Origin: Candidatus Bipolaricaulis anaerobius
GTDB taxonomy: Bacteria > Bipolaricaulota > Bipolaricaulia > Bipolaricaulales > Bipolaricaulaceae
Direction: 5' to 3'
Length of the DNA: 64,000 nucleotides
NCBI RefSeq assembly: GCF_900465355.1
Contig: NZ_LS483254.1
Span: 806,001-870,000, forward strand
Each line of letters starts with the position of its first letter. Within the stretch, counting starts at the first letter, position 1. Below are positions 8,435 to 16,553 of the stretch, in pieces. Below the pieces are notes generated by a model that worked only from the letters and a program-made list of their open reading frames with translations, was not told where the DNA came from and made no database searches. A program made the position numbers and the translations under genes.

Positions 8435-9712
8435 ATGAAACGGGTGGCTTGGATTGCGGTAGCTCTCTTGGCGATGGGCGCGGTGGCCATGGCGGCCAAT
8501 CCGGTCAAGATCACGTTCTGGACACATGAAGACCCCAACCGGACGCCGCTTGAGGAGGAGTACATCCGACGGTTCGAGGCGCTCTACCCCCACGTGACGA
8601 TCGAGCGGGTGACCTACCCGTCGGCGAAGATCGCGGAGGTGCTGTTGACGGCGTTCGCGGCGGGCCAGGGACCGGACATGTTCAACCTCGAGATCAACGA
8701 CGCGTATCCCTACCTCGTCATGGGCCGGGTCGCGCCGCTGCGGCCGGAGTGGGTGGGCTACGCGGACGTGGACACGATCCTCGGGGCGTACCTCGAGGGG
8801 ACCCTCGATCCCGTCTATCGGGACGGCCAACTGTACGGCTTGCCGCTTGAGCTGACGATCTGGTCAGTGTTTGTGAACAAGAAGTACTTCCGGGAGGTCG
8901 GCCTCGACCCGGACACGGACTACCCGCGGACCTGGGAGCAGATGATGGAGGTCTCGGAGAAGCTCGTCATCCGCGAGGGCGAGATCATCAAGCGCCGGGG
9001 GTTCGACTTCCGCTACGGGTATTACCTTGAATGGCTGTTGCCAATGGTCGAGCAGCTCGGCGGGTCGTTCCTCAGCCCGGACGGGCAGACAGCAATCATC
9101 AATGACGAGGCGTGGCTCCAGGTGCTGCGGTACCTCCAGCAGTGGGGCCCGCTTGGGAAGAACCTCGGTTCCCCCACCTACAAGGCGGCCCGCTCGCTCT
9201 TCAACTTTGACCGGAACGAAGTGACGATGTGTTTGAGCGGCTTCTACCAGATCGCCCGGATCAGGAACGACAACCCGGCGTTCTACGAGAGCGGCGAGTG
9301 GATGGTCATTCCGTTCCCCGTGTTTGAGAACGCGGTCCAGGACATAGCTGCCCACTACTACGGGCACTACTACATGGTGAACGCGCAGAGCTCACGTGAG
9401 ACCCAGGAGTGGACATGGCGGTTCATCGCCTACATGCTCTCGAACCCGGAGGAGTACCTCACCAAGGCCGGCCTGATCCAGCCTCGGAACGACCTCCTTG
9501 CCTCCGATGTGTACGCAGCGCAGCCGTTCGGCGACGTGTTCGCGGCGGACATGGCCCGCTCGTCGATGGTGCAGTTGCACGTGGCCAACCCGGAGTTCAA
9601 GCAGCTCCTGGATGACGCCGTGAAGGCAGTGATGCTGCAGGGCGTGACCCCGGAGGATGCCTTGGCCACGCTGCGGCGGAAGGCGAACGAGGTCCTCGCG
9701 GAGTACAAGTAG
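8435..9712 (+). CDS. ABC sugar transporter, substrate-binding protein
   Basis: A 425-residue family 1 extracellular solute-binding protein. An N-terminal signal (MKRVAWIAVALLAMGAVAMA) is followed by KITFWTHEDPNR, the usual first strand of this fold. A good ribosome-binding site (AAGGAGG) precedes the ATG. It binds an unknown sugar or glycoside outside the cell and hands it to the two permeases downstream. A terminator-like hairpin separates it from them, which would keep the binding protein in excess. No lipobox Cys is visible at the cleavage site. TATACT at 8316-8321 may be the -10 box. Confidence 0.92.
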   Translation: MKRVAWIAVALLAMGAVAMAANPVKITFWTHEDPNRTPLEEEYIRRFEALYPHVTIERVTYPSAKIAEVLLTAFAAGQGPDMFNLEINDAYPYLVMGRVAPLRPEWVGYADVDTILGAYLEGTLDPVYRDGQLYGLPLELTIWSVFVNKKYFREVGLDPDTDYPRTWEQMMEVSEKLVIREGEIIKRRGFDFRYGYYLEWLLPMVEQLGGSFLSPDGQTAIINDEAWLQVLRYLQQWGPLGKNLGSPTYKAARSLFNFDRNEVTMCLSGFYQIARIRNDNPAFYESGEWMVIPFPVFENAVQDIAAHYYGHYYMVNAQSSRETQEWTWRFIAYMLSNPEEYLTKAGLIQPRNDLLASDVYAAQPFGDVFAADMARSSMVQLHVANPEFKQLLDDAVKAVMLQGVTPEDALATLRRKANEVLAEYK

Positions 9713-9745
9713 CCATATGGGCAGCATGGGTAACTAAGGCAGGAA

Positions 9746-9776
9746 GAGGGCCCGGGCGTCCGGGCCCTCGTGCTTT
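9746..9776 (+). terminator. Attenuating hairpin between binding protein and permease genes
   Basis: GAGGGCCCGG (9746-9755) pairs perfectly with CCGGGCCCTC (9760-9769) around a 4-nt loop and is followed by the T-rich GTGCTTTCTCT. It lies between the substrate-binding gene and the first permease, so partial read-through is expected. Confidence 0.75.
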
Positions 9777-9798
9777 CTCTAGAAGACGAGGGGGCGTC

Positions 9799-10713
9799 TT
9801 GCGGAAAAACGGGCACACGCGGGGGATCTGTGAGCGCCGCGGCCGCTGGGGCTGGGCGTTCGTCGTGCCGAGCTTGGTCTTCTTCGGGTTGTTCAGCATC
9901 TATCCGGTCCTGAACGCCCTCTACCTCAGCTTCTTCCAGAAACATCTCCTCTCCACCGCGCCGCCGAAGTTCATCGGCTTCGGGAACTACCTGTACCTCT
10001 TTCACTCGCCGACGTTCTGGAACTCGCTTCGGGCGACCGCCATCTTCACTGGGGGGGCGTTCTCGCTCCTCGTCGGGTTGAGCCTCATCCTCGCTGTGTT
10101 CATCACCTCGCGGAGGAAGCTCCAGCGGTTCCTCCAGCTCGCGTTCTTCTCCCCAGCGGTGGTGTCCACGGTCGTGGCGGCCGCGATCTGGCTCCTCATC
10201 TTCGACCCGCGGGGGATTGCTAACCAGCTCGTGAACGCGCTCGCAGGGACGCCGGGCGTAGACCATAACTGGCTCGCGGCGCCGGCGATGCTCCAGCTTT
10301 CGACGATCCTTGTCTACGTGTGGAAGTACGTCGGGTACTTCACGATCATCTTCATCACTGGCATCGGAAGCATCCCGCGGTCGCTCTTCGAGGCGGCGCG
10401 GGTGGATGGGGCGAGCGTGTGGCAGACGTTCTGGAAGATCACGTTCCCCCTCCTCAAACCGACCACGCTCCTCGTCTCGGTCATGGCGATGATCCAGTGC
10501 TTGAGGACGTTCAGCACGCAGTATTTCTTTTCCCAGGCCGGATCACCGCGGTCACCGATCGATGTGATCACGCTGAACGTGTACCACACCGCGATCCGGA
10601 ACTTCCAGATCGGCCGGGCGAGCGCGTTGAGTTTGATCCTGTTCGCGATCATGTTGCTCTTGAGCTGGCTCCAGTTCCGTCTGGCGCGTTCGGAGGAGGT
10701 GAGCTACCTGTGA
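9799..10713 (+). CDS. ABC sugar permease, MalF/UgpA type
   Basis: A 304-residue inner-membrane permease with six predicted segments. The coupling (EAA) loop is present as ARVDGASVWQTFWKITFPLL. The TTG at 9799 is taken as the start because it follows a GACGAGGGGG ribosome-binding region and leaves a short basic N-tail before the first membrane segment (WAFVVPSLVFFGLF). It forms the import channel with the next gene. No ATPase is encoded in the cluster, so a shared MsmX-type ATPase elsewhere is likely. Confidence 0.92.
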   Translation: MRKNGHTRGICERRGRWGWAFVVPSLVFFGLFSIYPVLNALYLSFFQKHLLSTAPPKFIGFGNYLYLFHSPTFWNSLRATAIFTGGAFSLLVGLSLILAVFITSRRKLQRFLQLAFFSPAVVSTVVAAAIWLLIFDPRGIANQLVNALAGTPGVDHNWLAAPAMLQLSTILVYVWKYVGYFTIIFITGIGSIPRSLFEAARVDGASVWQTFWKITFPLLKPTTLLVSVMAMIQCLRTFSTQYFFSQAGSPRSPIDVITLNVYHTAIRNFQIGRASALSLILFAIMLLLSWLQFRLARSEEVSYL

Positions 10714-11573
10714 GGGGGCGCCGAGGGTTGGCGAAGGGCCGGTCGGTGGTGGCCACGGTTGGGGTGTGGGTTGTCCTGGGGCTGATGCTCGTCTACGTTC
10801 TAGGTCCCCTCGTATTTATGGCCACCGCTTCGCTCATGCCGGCGAGCGAGGTGACGCGCATCCCGTACCGGTGGATCCCCAACACGTTCTACTGGCAGAA
10901 CTTCTGGCAGGCGATCCGGGGGAACGATGGGCGGTTCTACTTCGTGCGGAACATGGTGAACTCCCTCTTCGTCGCCACCGCGATCACGCTGACCACGGTC
11001 GTCCTGTCCACGGTCACGGGCTACGGGCTTGCCAAGTTCACGTTCCGGGGCAGGAAGGCGATCATGCTCCTCATCGTCGCCACGATGATGATCCCGTTTC
11101 AGGTGATCATGATCCCCCTCTACATCATCACCACGAACATGGGGATGCAGAACTCGTACGCTGGCCTGATCGTCCCGTTCTTGGTGAACGCGTTCGGCGT
11201 GTTCCTCATGCGCCAGCACCTTCTCACCTTCCCCGATGAGATCCTCGATGCTGCCCGCATCGATGGAGCGAGCGAGGTGCAGATCCTATGGCGCGTCGTG
11301 TTCCCCAGCAGCTGGCCAGCGATCGCGACGTTGGCCGTCCTCACCTTCCGCACCCAATGGGATAACCTCATGTGGCCGCTCCTCATCGCCCAGAGCCGCG
11401 AGATGCAGACGATCCCGCTCTACATCACGCTGTTCGCTGAGGAGAAGTTCACCGATGAGGGGGCGATGATGGCGACCGCGGTCCTTGCCTCCCTGCCCAT
11501 GGTCGTCCTCTTCCTGGGGTTGTCGCGGTACTTCGTGGGGGGAGCGCGCCTCTTCTCCGCGCAGAAGGGGTAA
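10710..11573 (+). CDS. ABC sugar permease, MalG/UgpE type
   Basis: A 287-residue second permease subunit. GTG 10710 overlaps the stop of the preceding permease (GTGA) and follows GGAGGAGGTGAG. The EAA loop reads ARIDGASEVQILWRVVFPSS. The protein has six predicted membrane helices, with the first at about 12-32. Its pairing with the MalF-type subunit is typical of CUT1 transporters for di- or oligosaccharides and glycerol phosphate. The substrate cannot be assigned from sequence alone. Confidence 0.92.
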   Translation: MRGRRGLAKGRSVVATVGVWVVLGLMLVYVLGPLVFMATASLMPASEVTRIPYRWIPNTFYWQNFWQAIRGNDGRFYFVRNMVNSLFVATAITLTTVVLSTVTGYGLAKFTFRGRKAIMLLIVATMMIPFQVIMIPLYIITTNMGMQNSYAGLIVPFLVNAFGVFLMRQHLLTFPDEILDAARIDGASEVQILWRVVFPSSWPAIATLAVLTFRTQWDNLMWPLLIAQSREMQTIPLYITLFAEEKFTDEGAMMATAVLASLPMVVLFLGLSRYFVGGARLFSAQKG

Positions 11574-11576
11574 CTC

Positions 11577-12164
11577 GTGAGGCTCGTGATCTCCGATCTG
11601 GGCGGCGTGGTGGTGGACAACGCGGATTCGGTGCCGGCCATCGCGGCGGAACTGGGGATGCCCGCGGAGGCCTTCCGCGCCCTCATGGGTGAGGACACGC
11701 GGCTTCTCATGGAGGGGACGATCACCCCCCTGGAGTTCTGGTCCAGATTCCGCGACCGGACGGGGCGGGAGGTTGGGGAGGACCTCTGGGAGAGGGAGTT
11801 CCGGCCGCGGACGAACCCCGCCGTCCTCACCCTGCTCACTCGGGTCCGGCGCCGGGCTCGGGTCGTGGCGGGGACGAATACGATGGAGCCCCACTGGCCT
11901 GCGCTCCAGAGGCTGGGCCTCCTCGCTGCATTCGATGCCGTGTACGCGTCCCACCGGATGGGCCTTGTGAAGCCCGATCCGCGGTTCTACGGGCGGATCC
12001 TCGCCGAGGAGAGGTGCCCTCCGGCGGAGGCGTTGTTCTTCGACGATGTCCTGGAGAACGTCGCGGGGGCGCGCGAGGCCGGGATCACCGCGTGGCAGTT
12101 CCGCGATCCAGGCAGCCTGGAGTCTGCCCTCCGCTCGTGCGGGCTCCTCAACGGCCGACCGTAG
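11577..12164 (+). CDS. HAD-superfamily sugar-phosphatase-like protein
   Basis: A 195-residue HAD hydrolase with a GTG start 3 nt after the upstream stop. Motif I is ISDLGGVVVD, the DLGxV form of YihX-type alpha-D-glucose-1-phosphatases, which lacks the second Asp of the classical DxDxT. Motif II lies in VVAGTNTME, the Lys in GLVKPDPRFY, and the metal-binding acidic pair in LFFDDVLENV. Its place at the end of the sugar-transport operon suggests that it dephosphorylates a sugar phosphate made from the imported substrate, possibly glucose-1-phosphate; the window also encodes glycogen enzymes. Confidence 0.85.
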   Translation: MRLVISDLGGVVVDNADSVPAIAAELGMPAEAFRALMGEDTRLLMEGTITPLEFWSRFRDRTGREVGEDLWEREFRPRTNPAVLTLLTRVRRRARVVAGTNTMEPHWPALQRLGLLAAFDAVYASHRMGLVKPDPRFYGRILAEERCPPAEALFFDDVLENVAGAREAGITAWQFRDPGSLESALRSCGLLNGRP

Positions 12165-12512: not shown

Positions 12513-12672
12513 CCGTACCACCTCCTGGCCGTATGGTAGCGAGGGCCGCGGCGAGGAGCCACAGGCAGCCGTTCGGGAACCTTTTCCCCTGAGGCGTGTA
12601 TATCCTAGCATGCGCTATAGCTGAGTGCTATAGTGGTCCATTCTCTTCCCGCGAGGGAAGGAGGCGGTTCTC

Positions 12673-15600
12673 ATGAACAGCGCGTTCGGTAGGTTCGTCG
12701 CGCTGGCCTTGCTCATCACGGGGGCGCTTCTCCCCGTCCTCGGGCAGACCACGCACCAGCCGTTCCTCCAGGATGTCGCGGCTCTCGCCGAGGCTCAGGC
12801 CGCCGCGGCCGCCCAAGCGGCAGCCCAGGCCCAGGCCGTGGCCGCTTCGGCCCAACGGCTCTTGGAGGGACTCAATGTGGCCCCGTTCCTCACGGCGGCG
12901 TCCGCGGCCAGTGCGGATGCCCAGGCAGCGGCCCAGGCGGTGGCCCAGGCAGTGGCCCGCGCCGAGGCAGAGGCGCGGGCGACGGTCCGTGCATGTGCGG
13001 AGGCGGTAGCGGAGGCCGAGGCGAGCGCCCAGGCGTGCGCCGCGGCGGCCGCGCAGGCGGAGGCGGCGGCTCACGCGTTCGCAACGGCGTGTGCACAGGC
13101 ACAAGCCGAAGCTAGCGCGTCGGCGGTCGCATGCGCGGACGCGGATGCGGAAGCGGCGGCCGCGGTGGCGGCGATCGTCCGGGCGTGCGCGGTGGCGAGG
13201 GCGGAGGCCGAGGCGAGTGCCGCGGCCTGTGCCGCCGCGGCGGTGGAGGTGGAGGCCTACGCCACGGCGACGGCTGCGGCGTTGGCCGAGGCGGAAGCAG
13301 CGGCCTACGCCCAGGCTCGCGCGGCCGCGGCTGCCCTCGCAGCCGCCCAGGCTGAGGCCCGGGCATGTGCCGAGGCAGCGGCCCAGGCCAAGGCATCTGC
13401 CCAGGCGGTGGCAAGCGCGCGCGCCTACGCCGCGGCCCAGGCGGCGACCTCAGCCCAGGCCTCCTCTCAGGCGCGGGATACGGCCCAGGTCGTGAAGCAG
13501 CGCATCGAGGACGCGGTCCCCTGCGTGACCGTGGTCGCCGAGATCGGTGGCACGGTGGACGCGCTCGTGACCGCGGTGGCGACGGCCAGCGCCACGGCCC
13601 AGGCCGCAGCCCAGGCCACGGCGCGCGCTGAGGCGTGGGCGGTCGCGCAAGCGGAGGCGGCCGCCCAGGCCCAAGCGCAGGCGGAGGCTCAGGCCCAGGC
13701 GTGCGCGTTCGCCTACGCCCAGGCGGAGGCGGCGGCACGGGCCGTCGCCCAGGCCCGGGCGAAGGCGGAAGCGGAGGCGAGGGCAGCAGCGAGCGCGATC
13801 GCGGTTGCCCATTCATCGGCGCAGGCTCAGGCCGCGGCGTGCGCCGCCGCGTACGCTGAGGCGGAAGCGGTGGCCGCGGCGGCTGCGCAGGCGATCGCCT
13901 CGGCGAAGGCCGCTGCTGAGGCGGAAGGGACGGCGATCGCCACTGCATGCGCCACGGCGCAGGCGTCGGCGAGCGCGATGGCCCGCGCGATCGCCTCAGC
14001 GAAAGCGCAGGCCGAGGCTCAAGCTACCGCTTGCGCCCAGGCGTGCGCCCAGGCAGATGCGGCCGCGCAGGCAATGGCGAGCGCGGTCGCGTCCGCCAGG
14101 GGCACGGCCGAGGCGCGCGCTTCGGCGGCTGCGAGCGCCTATGCCCGAGCCCAGTCGGAGGCAAGCGCGATGAGCGCAGCCGTGGCGGCGGCGGTGGCCG
14201 AGGCGAAGGCCCAGGCTGCGGCAGCGGCGACAGCAGCCGCGACCGCCCGCGCAGAGGCCACAGCCTGTGCAACCGCAGTCGCGTCTGCATCCGCATCCGC
14301 CGCCGCATCGGCGTCGGCGGCGGGGACAGCGGGGAGCACGGCCTATGCCGAGGCCTACGCTCAGGCGGAGGGGTTCGCCGCGGCTGAGGTGCTCGCTCGC
14401 GCTGCCGCGTGTGCCCAGGCCGCAGTCCAGGCCCAGGCGGCAGCGGAAGCGGCGGCGGGCGCGTATGCGCGGGCCCAGGCCGCCGCGGCAGCCGGGGTGC
14501 AAGCGGTAGCCCAGGCGGCCGCGGATGCGCAGGCAGCGGCCCTGGCGTGCGTTGAAGCGCAGGCTCAGGCGGAAGCGGAGGTTGCGGCCGGGGTGCAGGC
14601 GATGGCCCAGGCGATCGCTCAGGCTCATGCCGCAGCGCACGCGGCGGCGGAGGCGGCCGTAGCGGCCTACGCCCAAGCGGTGGCCTGTGTCGAGGCCTAC
14701 GCAAGCGCGCAGGCGGAAGCGATGGCCCATGCCCACGCCGCCGCCCTCGCCCAAGCGGACGCCGAGGCGTGTGTTGCCGTCTACGCAGAGGCAGCCGCGA
14801 CGGCGCTCGCCAAGGCGGCAGCGGCGGCCTACGCCTCTGCTACCGCGTTCGCCGGGGCCCAGGCATCGGCGTTCGCGTGCGTTCAGGCCCTCGCGCTCGC
14901 GGAGGCGGAGGCGTACGCCCAGGCTCAGGCCTGTGCGTTGGCCCTCGCCCACGCGGAGGCGAGCGCCACAGCCACGGCTGAGGTGAGGGTCCGCGCGGCC
15001 GCGTTCGCTGCGGCGTGTGCGGAAGCCCTTGCCCAGGCCCAGGCGATGGCCCAGGCCTGCGCGCAGGCGGCGGCCACGGCGGCCACGTCGGTTGAGATTG
15101 TCCCCACCATCGAGGCATCCATCCAGACGTTCATTGACCCGCAATGCCTCCAGCCGACGTGCGAGCAGTACGTGCCACCGACCCCCACCGGCTGTCCCGC
15201 CACGCGGGAGCTGACGTGGGACTTCGGACAGCTGACGGCGGGGAGCAGCGTGAACTCCACGAAGTTGTTCCCGGCGGATCTCGCGAGCGCGGTTTCCTCG
15301 CTGGGGGTCGTGTCCGCGACCCGCGTGAGCTCCACGTTGCCCGCCAGCCTCGCGTTCGACCTCATCCTCTCCTCGCGGCAGGGCAAGCTCTCCGGCACCG
15401 TGCCCCGCGAGGGCGACAAGTGGAGTGTCGTGTACAACTTGCTCGACCGGAACCAGTGCGTGGTCCTGCGGCTCACAGTGGTCATCTACACGGCGGCGAC
15501 CACCACCCAGTGCCCGCAGTTCACCGGGCTGAAGTGGGACTTCGGCGAGGTTCCTACCGGACAGCACCTCCTCACAACGAAGGCCATTCCGGCGGGTGAT

Positions 15601-16509
15601 CTCTCCCGGTTCCGGTCGGCGGGGATCACCCGCATCACCCGGATCTCGTCGAACCTCCCCACCGGGGCCGAGCTGAACCTTGACCTCAACCAGGGGCTTG
15701 GGATCCTCACCGGAAACCTACCCACGGCGGGGGCGAACTACGAGGTCCTGTTTGGACTCTTCGACGCTCGGAACTGTGAGCTGTTTAGGTACTCCGTCTC
15801 GCTGCGGACGGCGGCAGCCGCCCGCGTGCCCGACCTCACGGTGCAGATCCGGGTGGCGGTGGAGAAGGTATGCGACAAGGAGTACAGCCACCTCGTGACC
15901 GTATACTGGCAGGCGAGCGGGGGGACATCCCCGCTCTTCGTGGGACCGATCAGCCTCGTCTATCCGAACGGCACAACCCAAGCCCTCGTCGGGACCTTCC
16001 CCGCATCTGGGTCGGTCGGGATTCGGGCGAACCTCTCCGGGGGCGGCTCGGTCACGGTGCGGGTCCAGGCCAATGACTCGGCCGGGCGAACGCAAACCGC
16101 CGAACAGAAGGTGGACCTCGAACCATGTGTCCAAATCGTCATTCCTGGCCCGATCGTCCGCCCGCTCGGGTACACGCTCGAGGTGTACGCGCGGCGGCAG
16201 GTCAGTGTGACGCCCGGGTACGAGGAGCTGCGGGTGCCGGTGCGGATCACTGGCGAGACGGAGGACCGCGTGACCCCATTCAGTAGCATGTTCTCGGCGG
16301 GGTCGCCGGTGACCCTCAGGTTCCCAGGGCGAATCCAGGGCGGAGCGTATGGCCGCGGTCCCATCTACTACGACGAGTGGGTGGGGGATGCCACCACGCC
16401 CACGCGGAAGAACGGTACCTGGGACGCAAGGCGTGAGTACTACCTGATCACCGTGACCATGAGCGCCAAGGTGAAGCTCGTCGTCTGGTACCAGGACATC
16501 ATCGGGTAA
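12673..16509 (+). CDS. Giant secreted Ala-X dipeptide-repeat protein with Ig-like C-terminal domains
   Basis: A 1278-residue protein. A signal peptide covers residues 1-24 (ending LLPVLG). From about 36 to 268 and 292 to 806 nearly every second residue is Ala, occasionally Gly, Ser or Val. The alternate position varies freely (Q, E, A, S, C, Y, R, V and others), as in AQAEAQAQACAFAYAQAEA. The two blocks are split by a normal segment around Cys277. About 20 Cys occupy only the variable positions. Residues 841-944 and 947-1049 are two homologous Ig-like repeats (each with a G-x-L-x-G-x-x-P turn and a conserved terminal Cys), followed by two further beta-rich regions. The start has a GGAAGGAGG site and the gene ends in a strong terminator. 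Function unknown; a surface fibre or sheath is plausible. Confidence 0.85.
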   Translation: MNSAFGRFVALALLITGALLPVLGQTTHQPFLQDVAALAEAQAAAAAQAAAQAQAVAASAQRLLEGLNVAPFLTAASAASADAQAAAQAVAQAVARAEAEARATVRACAEAVAEAEASAQACAAAAAQAEAAAHAFATACAQAQAEASASAVACADADAEAAAAVAAIVRACAVARAEAEASAAACAAAAVEVEAYATATAAALAEAEAAAYAQARAAAAALAAAQAEARACAEAAAQAKASAQAVASARAYAAAQAATSAQASSQARDTAQVVKQRIEDAVPCVTVVAEIGGTVDALVTAVATASATAQAAAQATARAEAWAVAQAEAAAQAQAQAEAQAQACAFAYAQAEAAARAVAQARAKAEAEARAAASAIAVAHSSAQAQAAACAAAYAEAEAVAAAAAQAIASAKAAAEAEGTAIATACATAQASASAMARAIASAKAQAEAQATACAQACAQADAAAQAMASAVASARGTAEARASAAASAYARAQSEASAMSAAVAAAVAEAKAQAAAAATAAATARAEATACATAVASASASAAASASAAGTAGSTAYAEAYAQAEGFAAAEVLARAAACAQAAVQAQAAAEAAAGAYARAQAAAAAGVQAVAQAAADAQAAALACVEAQAQAEAEVAAGVQAMAQAIAQAHAAAHAAAEAAVAAYAQAVACVEAYASAQAEAMAHAHAAALAQADAEACVAVYAEAAATALAKAAAAAYASATAFAGAQASAFACVQALALAEAEAYAQAQACALALAHAEASATATAEVRVRAAAFAAACAEALAQAQAMAQACAQAAATAATSVEIVPTIEASIQTFIDPQCLQPTCEQYVPPTPTGCPATRELTWDFGQLTAGSSVNSTKLFPADLASAVSSLGVVSATRVSSTLPASLAFDLILSSRQGKLSGTVPREGDKWSVVYNLLDRNQCVVLRLTVVIYTAATTTQCPQFTGLKWDFGEVPTGQHLLTTKAIPAGDLSRFRSAGITRITRISSNLPTGAELNLDLNQGLGILTGNLPTAGANYEVLFGLFDARNCELFRYSVSLRTAAAARVPDLTVQIRVAVEKVCDKEYSHLVTVYWQASGGTSPLFVGPISLVYPNGTTQALVGTFPASGSVGIRANLSGGGSVTVRVQANDSAGRTQTAEQKVDLEPCVQIVIPGPIVRPLGYTLEVYARRQVSVTPGYEELRVPVRITGETEDRVTPFSSMFSAGSPVTLRFPGRIQGGAYGRGPIYYDEWVGDATTPTRKNGTWDARREYYLITVTMSAKVKLVVWYQDIIG

Positions 16510-16525
16510 GGACGGAAGCGCGACC

Positions 16526-16553
16526 AAGGGGGCGGGCGCGGCCCGCCCCCTTT
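16526..16553 (+). terminator. Rho-independent terminator of the Ala-X repeat gene
   Basis: AAGGGGGCGGGC (16526-16537) and GCCCGCCCCCTT (16541-16552) form a 12-bp stem with a 3-nt loop ending in TTT. It starts 17 nt after the stop codon and also separates the gene from the convergent ispD. Confidence 0.8.

Follow-up and report, generated by a model that had tools for sequence, protein, structure and literature searches.

The question raised by the plus-strand gene at 12673-16509 of the window (the whole 64,000-nucleotide stretch of Candidatus Bipolaricaulis anaerobius DNA analysed here) is what is built by a 1278-amino-acid protein in which alanine (Ala) alternates with a variable residue (X) for more than 700 residues. 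The original prediction described a silk-like exoprotein of fibroin architecture, with all Ala on one face of a beta-strand, and touched on a helical reading just in passing. We estimate a probability of about 0.6 that it is a secreted, length-fixed, Ala-packed antiparallel three-helix rod, which serves as a spacer or stalk for immunoglobulin-like (Ig-like) domains. Approximately 775 residues of near-perfect Ala-X repeat would fold as one rigid antiparallel up-down-up three-helix rod of about 38-40 nm, in which an amphipathic stripe of X residues, together with the small Ala elsewhere, would allow close helix packing. The rod would terminate in a conserved cysteine (Cys)-containing junction followed by four Ig-like domains, and would act as a length-defined spacer or stalk holding these domains away from an anchorage. 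The helical periodicity, the three continuous segments, the conserved length and the purifying selection were obtained by computation.

Ala occupied 89% of the odd positions vs 16% of the even positions over about 725 residues (approximately 79-804), and the residues replacing it at Ala positions were mostly V, S, G and T. The claimed in-phase alternation of more than 700 residues was borne out, but not as one uninterrupted run: the block was broken by non-repeat turns at residues ~269-298 (VPCVTVVAEIGG) and 550-555 (AGTAGS), with the Ala-X phase identical on either side of both. Similarly, X varied at alternate positions as described, but not at random. Residue classes recurred at distances of 14, 18, 28, 32, 36, 46, 50, 60, 64, 78, 82, 92 and 96 residues, which are the even integers closest to multiples of 32/9 = 3.556. 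The 22 Cys of the block were confined to X positions, as had been noted; their proposed cross-linking between chains found no direct support, and the conserved Cys recurred at spacings of 14, 18 and 32 residues, consistent with the hydrophobic face of a helix. A genome scan with the pattern (GCNNNN)13 gave matches that, among those listed, all lay within the rod gene, and the reversed control pattern had 0 occurrences in the whole genome. The Ala-X alternation is far beyond chance.

Fourier analysis of the X residues gave a period of 3.53-3.56, or a sampling alias of 4.6, which arises because every second residue is sampled. The V, I and L residues at Ala positions shared the hydrophobic face only under the period of 3.54, which was favoured in 14 of 15 sequences and reached by 0 of 2000 permutations, a figure that overstates the certainty because the sequences are related. 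The amphipathic stripe, equivalent to 32 residues per 9 turns, had a period of 3.54-3.56 in all three segments of the rod; the family-averaged hydrophobic power was 21.9, 22.1 and, more weakly, 7.4 in segments 1, 2 and 3, respectively (a random sequence would give about 1). Hydrophobic residues made up 75% and polar residues 4% of the stripe centre in segment 1, against 4-6% and up to 70%, respectively, on the far side. AlphaFold2 (AF2), run with 23 relatives, gave helix throughout the rod, with a mean predicted local distance difference test (pLDDT) score of 77. No recurrence peak was detected at 16 residues, as a 16-residue beta-coil would need. The Ala-X block is likely an alpha-helix; the former aside is favoured by both the X periodicity and AF2.

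In comparison with relatives of 61-70% X identity, the Ala positions showed a nonsynonymous rate (dN) of 0.02-0.03 at a synonymous rate (dS) of about 1.1, and the X positions a dN of 0.19-0.32. The dN/dS of approximately 0.02-0.05 at Ala positions corresponds to strong purifying selection. All four of the four Ala codons were in use, and the most divergent member, with a locus of 46% GC, retained the alternation. Given this purifying selection and the Ala kept at 46% GC, the alternation is neither an assembly nor a GC artefact; it is maintained at the protein level.

The rod and the parts adjoining it were delimited as follows.

12760..12870, plus strand: conserved short N-terminal helix PFLPDIVALAQAQAQAAAQAAAQAQ..AQ.LL, residues 30-66 (conservation; AF2)
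12880..13518, plus strand: rod helix 1, residues 70-282, Ala-X (continuous 9/32 phase, period 3.54, AF2 helix)
13519..13551, plus strand: conserved turn VPC(G)..V...G, residues 283-293 (conservation, phase jump, alignment A4)
13552..14319, plus strand: rod helix 2, residues 294-549, Ala-X (continuous 9/32 phase, constant length)
14320..14337, plus strand: conserved turn AGTG, residues 550-555 (Gly conservation, phase jump)
14338..15084, plus strand: rod helix 3, residues 556-804, Ala-X (helical signal weaker towards the C-terminal part)
15085..15192, plus strand: junction TSVEVVP.IETS..FIDP.CL.PTC, residues 805-840, linker from rod to Ig-like domains (alignment A3)

With the periodicity set to exactly 9/32 turns per residue, the phase of the hydrophobic stripe ran from 121 to 98 degrees over most of residues 72-282, from -81 to -107 degrees over most of residues 340-550, and from 56 to 96 degrees over residues 556-716. 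It varied by no more than about 25 degrees across the greater part of each segment, jumped at the VPCG and AGTG turns, and drifted on both sides near the top turn. Frequent Pro and Gly were concentrated at the first turn (P283, 90%; G285, 86%; G293, 100%) and the second (G551, 95%; G554, 80%; G555, 76%). Gly/Val motifs in helix 3 at 608, 640, 672 and 704 followed the 32-residue spacing. The short N-terminal helix, placed by AF2 at 8-42 in mature numbering, was followed by a kink at LD(V).

Measured from the conserved N-terminal PFL motif, the segments comprised 252, 266 and about 255 residues, which corresponds to 38-40 nm as helix. Away from the turns, nearly all members had identical anchor-to-anchor distances, and helix 2 was residue-exact in length in the non-inserted relatives, the most divergent member excepted. 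The segment lengths were thus nearly fixed while X identity dropped to 40%. Fixed length with diverging sequence is a described signature of coiled-coil spacers (PMC5082667), and a length-defined stalk or spacer is proposed here.

A clade of five genomes carried 32 additional residues in each of segments 1, 2 and 3, with the rod spacing otherwise common to the family. The clade was monophyletic (support 0.96), and its sister, L065, was without insertions. The breakpoints lay after residue 86 (84-87), within 451-489 (best 482), and after 634-635. In an up-down-up model with turns at 283.5 and 552, the breakpoint in segment 2 is expected at 481-482 from the first breakpoint and at 469-470 from the third; the permitted range includes both values, and the three insertions fit one rod level within about 12 residues. 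All segments of the most divergent member were shorter (224, 222 and 207), and in another divergent member the third segment numbered 206 residues. Most simply, this would be explained by an antiparallel three-helix rod that was lengthened or shortened across all helices together. We infer the intrachain antiparallel packing and the spacer function of the rod protein, as well as its export. The perfect co-variation of C140 and C426, whose sum of 566 is as the antiparallel model predicts, was not used as disulfide evidence, because the losses follow the tree and other Cys pairs misfit.

Several points weigh against this three-helix rod. The coupled-length argument is post hoc and draws on one triple insertion and one divergent sequence; the five inserted sequences are not five tests, because they share one ancestral change, and one insertion per segment would occur by chance with a probability of about 0.2 if the events were independent. 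The AF2 rod model reached a predicted template modelling score (pTM) of only 0.39, with a low-confidence break (pLDDT <50) in the middle of each segment, and the helical signal fades after about residue 700, being weak over the final third of helix 3. Ala conservation was near-equal on every helix face (0.88-0.96 in segment 2), which a helix alone leaves unaccounted for, since a three-helix core requires small residues inside only. In addition, no anchor domain was found in the rod protein, and a conserved operon was looked for around its gene and not seen.

The even Ala conservation hints at contacts beyond a single bundle and would suit helical segments that pair with other chains, as an oligomeric coiled coil or bundle, or that form an extended linear array of more than 100 nm. 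Such an arrangement accommodates the helical evidence equally well; however, a link among the segments is indicated by their near-equal lengths, by the +32 insertion in all three and by the joint shortening in the most divergent member, and we regard this arrangement as unlikely. The AF2 model itself, with breaks at mature residues 130-140, 376-386 and 676-678, would describe a six-helix hairpin bundle with extra mid-segment turns and a rod of about 20 nm. These breaks were rejected as real turns, since they lie in segments of low confidence (pLDDT <50) and the hydrophobic phase is unchanged there. Frequent Pro or Gly do not occur at them, apart from 38% Gly at 704, and a 32-residue insertion would add 16 residues to each arm, that is 4.5 turns with the face flipped. 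The initial AlphaFold models of umbrella-toxin stalks were likewise bent, and straight stalks were favoured (PMC11062931). The six-helix bundle is accordingly given a low probability, about half that of pairing with other chains.

A silk-like fold, either a beta-sheet or a beta-solenoid with one all-Ala face, would explain the strict two-residue alternation, which is the natural signature of a beta-strand. Designed alternating-Ala peptides such as EAK16 and RADA16 form beta fibres. Nevertheless, with the 3.54 stripe and its alias broken, the lack of a 16-residue peak and the all-helix AF2 model, this reading has become very improbable, and the silk-like label of the original prediction is rejected on the computed evidence. 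Finally, hexanucleotide repeat expansion or GC pressure might have produced the alternation as a side effect with no role in structure. Tandem Repeats Finder detected many short imperfect arrays with periods mostly multiples of 6, and the human TCERG1 (QA)38 tract is a hexanucleotide repeat (PMC9445028). This explanation, the least credible of all, is already contradicted by the Ala dN/dS of 0.02-0.05 with all four Ala codons, and by conservation across a class, down to the 46% GC locus, at nearly fixed lengths.

Returning to the proposed three-helix rod, its junction contains C825 and C830, which are invariant in the family, and AF2 modelled the C-terminus behind it as four beta-sandwich domains (pLDDT 82).

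15205..15492, plus strand: beta-sandwich domain 1, WDFG type, residues ~845-940 (AF2, mean pLDDT 82)
15523..15810, plus strand: beta-sandwich domain 2, WDFG type, residues ~951-1046 (AF2; second copy of the domain-1 profile)
15838..16119, plus strand: beta-sandwich domain 3, Ig-like, with weak He_PIG resemblance, residues ~1056-1149 (AF2, He_PIG search)
16168..16497, plus strand: beta-sandwich domain 4, residues ~1166-1275 (AF2)

He_PIG was weakly matched in 8 of 15 members (best E 1.5e-5) and was below the cut-off in the window protein. Foldseek matched the C-terminus to cadherins, Ig chains and the Bacillus Sap S-layer assembly domain. The C-terminal domains are predicted from these models to be Ig-like, in agreement with the original prediction. 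A PDB profile search gave a best E of 0.017 with the C-terminus and low-complexity matches only with the rod. The sole SLH-domain match of the genome was found in a 166-aa frame (L084; G000:C1:65982-66110, minus strand), a candidate envelope anchor protein.

The placement of the protein outside the cell also held up, in that it is probably exported. A probable signal peptide (MNSAFGRFVALALLITGALLPVLG/Q) was recognised in the sequence, and hydrophobic leaders were also present at the N-terminus of relatives. The remaining features of the gene are listed below.

12658..12664, plus strand: Shine-Dalgarno-like AAGGAGG, 8 nt 5' of the ATG (read directly)
12673..12744, plus strand: probable signal peptide, residues 1-24, VLG/QT cleavage, type I-like (sequence inspection)
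16534..16548, plus strand: weak intrinsic-terminator-like hairpin 3' of the stop codon (about 1 such site expected by chance in the region)

The gene is single copy in a 1.32-Mb one-contig genome of Candidatus Bipolaricaulis type, and no paralogue of its C-terminal part was found elsewhere in that genome. Sugar-type ABC transporter genes (a solute-binding protein and two permeases) and then a HAD-like gene (11577-12164) occupy 8435-12164; the HAD-like gene adjoins the rod gene syntenically in close relatives only, and an upstream Mth938-like gene is likewise conserved only among close relatives. A minus-strand frame at 14928-15485 and antisense frames of relatives show spurious Ala alternation, because GC is its own reverse complement and (GCNNNN)n therefore reads as Ala-X in one antisense frame too. 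An Arg/Leu/Gly-rich minus-strand open reading frame of 523 aa (13996-15567) is open because of the high GC.

Named relatives with 81-94% identity came mostly from Candidatus Bipolaricaulis and Acetothermia metagenome-assembled genomes. Among 100 Bipolaricaulota genomes, 40 carried the C-terminus, 38 the junction, 33 the first turn and 40 a 20-unit Ala-X run, some carriers being detected by one of these four markers alone. By these markers, the family occurs in at least 40% of the genomes searched, and the carrier share was about half when only genomes with a completeness of 90% or more and a contamination of 5% or less were counted. The relatives retained the two-residue phase, a check that had been suggested. 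Pfam and NCBIfam searches with the whole protein gave no match, and no alternating-Ala bacterial protein was found in the literature. Relatives outside the phylum were not found in plasmids or viral contigs, and a single contig scan covered other phyla at the level of near-identical peptides. As originally proposed, this appears to be an undescribed protein family, new as a family and conserved in Bipolaricaulota.

The original prediction had named two cases against itself. One, an assembly artefact, is contradicted by the full-length members in two one-contig genomes (G000 and G004) and by the purifying selection on Ala. The other was homologues with a conserved C-terminus and no alternating block; L043 (G026) and L044 (G014) have intact C-termini and short Ala-X blocks. 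The L043 locus contains Ns, the frame breaks inside the gene, and its block was probably shortened when the repeat collapsed in short-read assembly. In L044, the junction is in frame and most of the rod is lost, which could be a real deletion or an assembly collapse. L066 (G003:C225), a second member beside a normal copy in the same genome, is a 1636-aa frame with several extra tandem WDFG-type beta-sandwich domains. Other relatives have fewer such copies, and the domain string behind the rod therefore varies in length.

The prosthecae of Candidatus Bipolaricaulis anaerobius are bipolar and 0.22-0.26 um in width, and the genome paper on this bacterium reported no pili, fimbriae or adhesins (PMC6092417). 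The rod proteins are large and probably exported, and they form an undescribed family across a phylum of uncultured bacteria known for such prosthecae. Since i and i+4 share parity, all-Ala grooves and all-X ridges alternate round the whole helix, and rods could therefore mesh side by side; that strict Ala-X is a new alpha-helix packing code, with rods meshing laterally into a lattice that shapes the envelope or prosthecae, is a speculative extension that we consider doubtful. A strict two-residue repeat, normally read as beta or silk, can hold a second, helical code. Adding one 32-residue, 9-turn slab per helix, for about 4.8 nm of extra length, would be a rule, taken from nature, for designing thin helical rods of adjustable length. 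The case also advises caution against labelling alternating-Ala proteins 'silk-like' from sequence alone.

Streptococcal antigen I/II is a single secreted chain that, like the rod protein, carries Ig-like domains along with an Ala-rich helical stalk. It lacks the strict Ala-X, its stalk is built from an alpha-helix against a polyproline helix, and it has LPXTG sorting. Serine-rich repeat adhesins are bacterial exoproteins with long, glycosylated S-X dipeptide tracts, and thus share a long two-residue-periodic tract with Ser in place of Ala; no helical stripe is known in them. A sequence-profile match, TCERG1 (QA)38, resembles the rod in that Ala alternates with another residue, with occasional Val, but this human nuclear protein has 38 dipeptides of near-pure Gln-Ala encoded by a hexamer repeat (PMC9445028). 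The top fold match, which was not significant (E 0.07, probability 0.38), was the UmbC stalk of Streptomyces umbrella particles (PDB 8w20). Like the proposed rod, UmbC forms a long helical stalk from distant parts of one chain, but it has ALF repeats, a Tat signal and C-terminal toxin domains (PMC11062931); the rod protein showed none of these. Unlike Omp-alpha, the rod protein has strict Ala-X, three intrachain segments, Ig-like domains and no Pfam match, and Pfam did not reveal the SLH domain and membrane anchor that Omp-alpha/OmpM tethers carry on the same chain. Omp-alpha of Thermotoga maritima is, like the proposed rod, an exported rod of similar length (about 50 nm; PMC5082667), and its host is a diderm with a toga, the structure to which the Bipolaricaulis envelope has been likened (PMC6092417).

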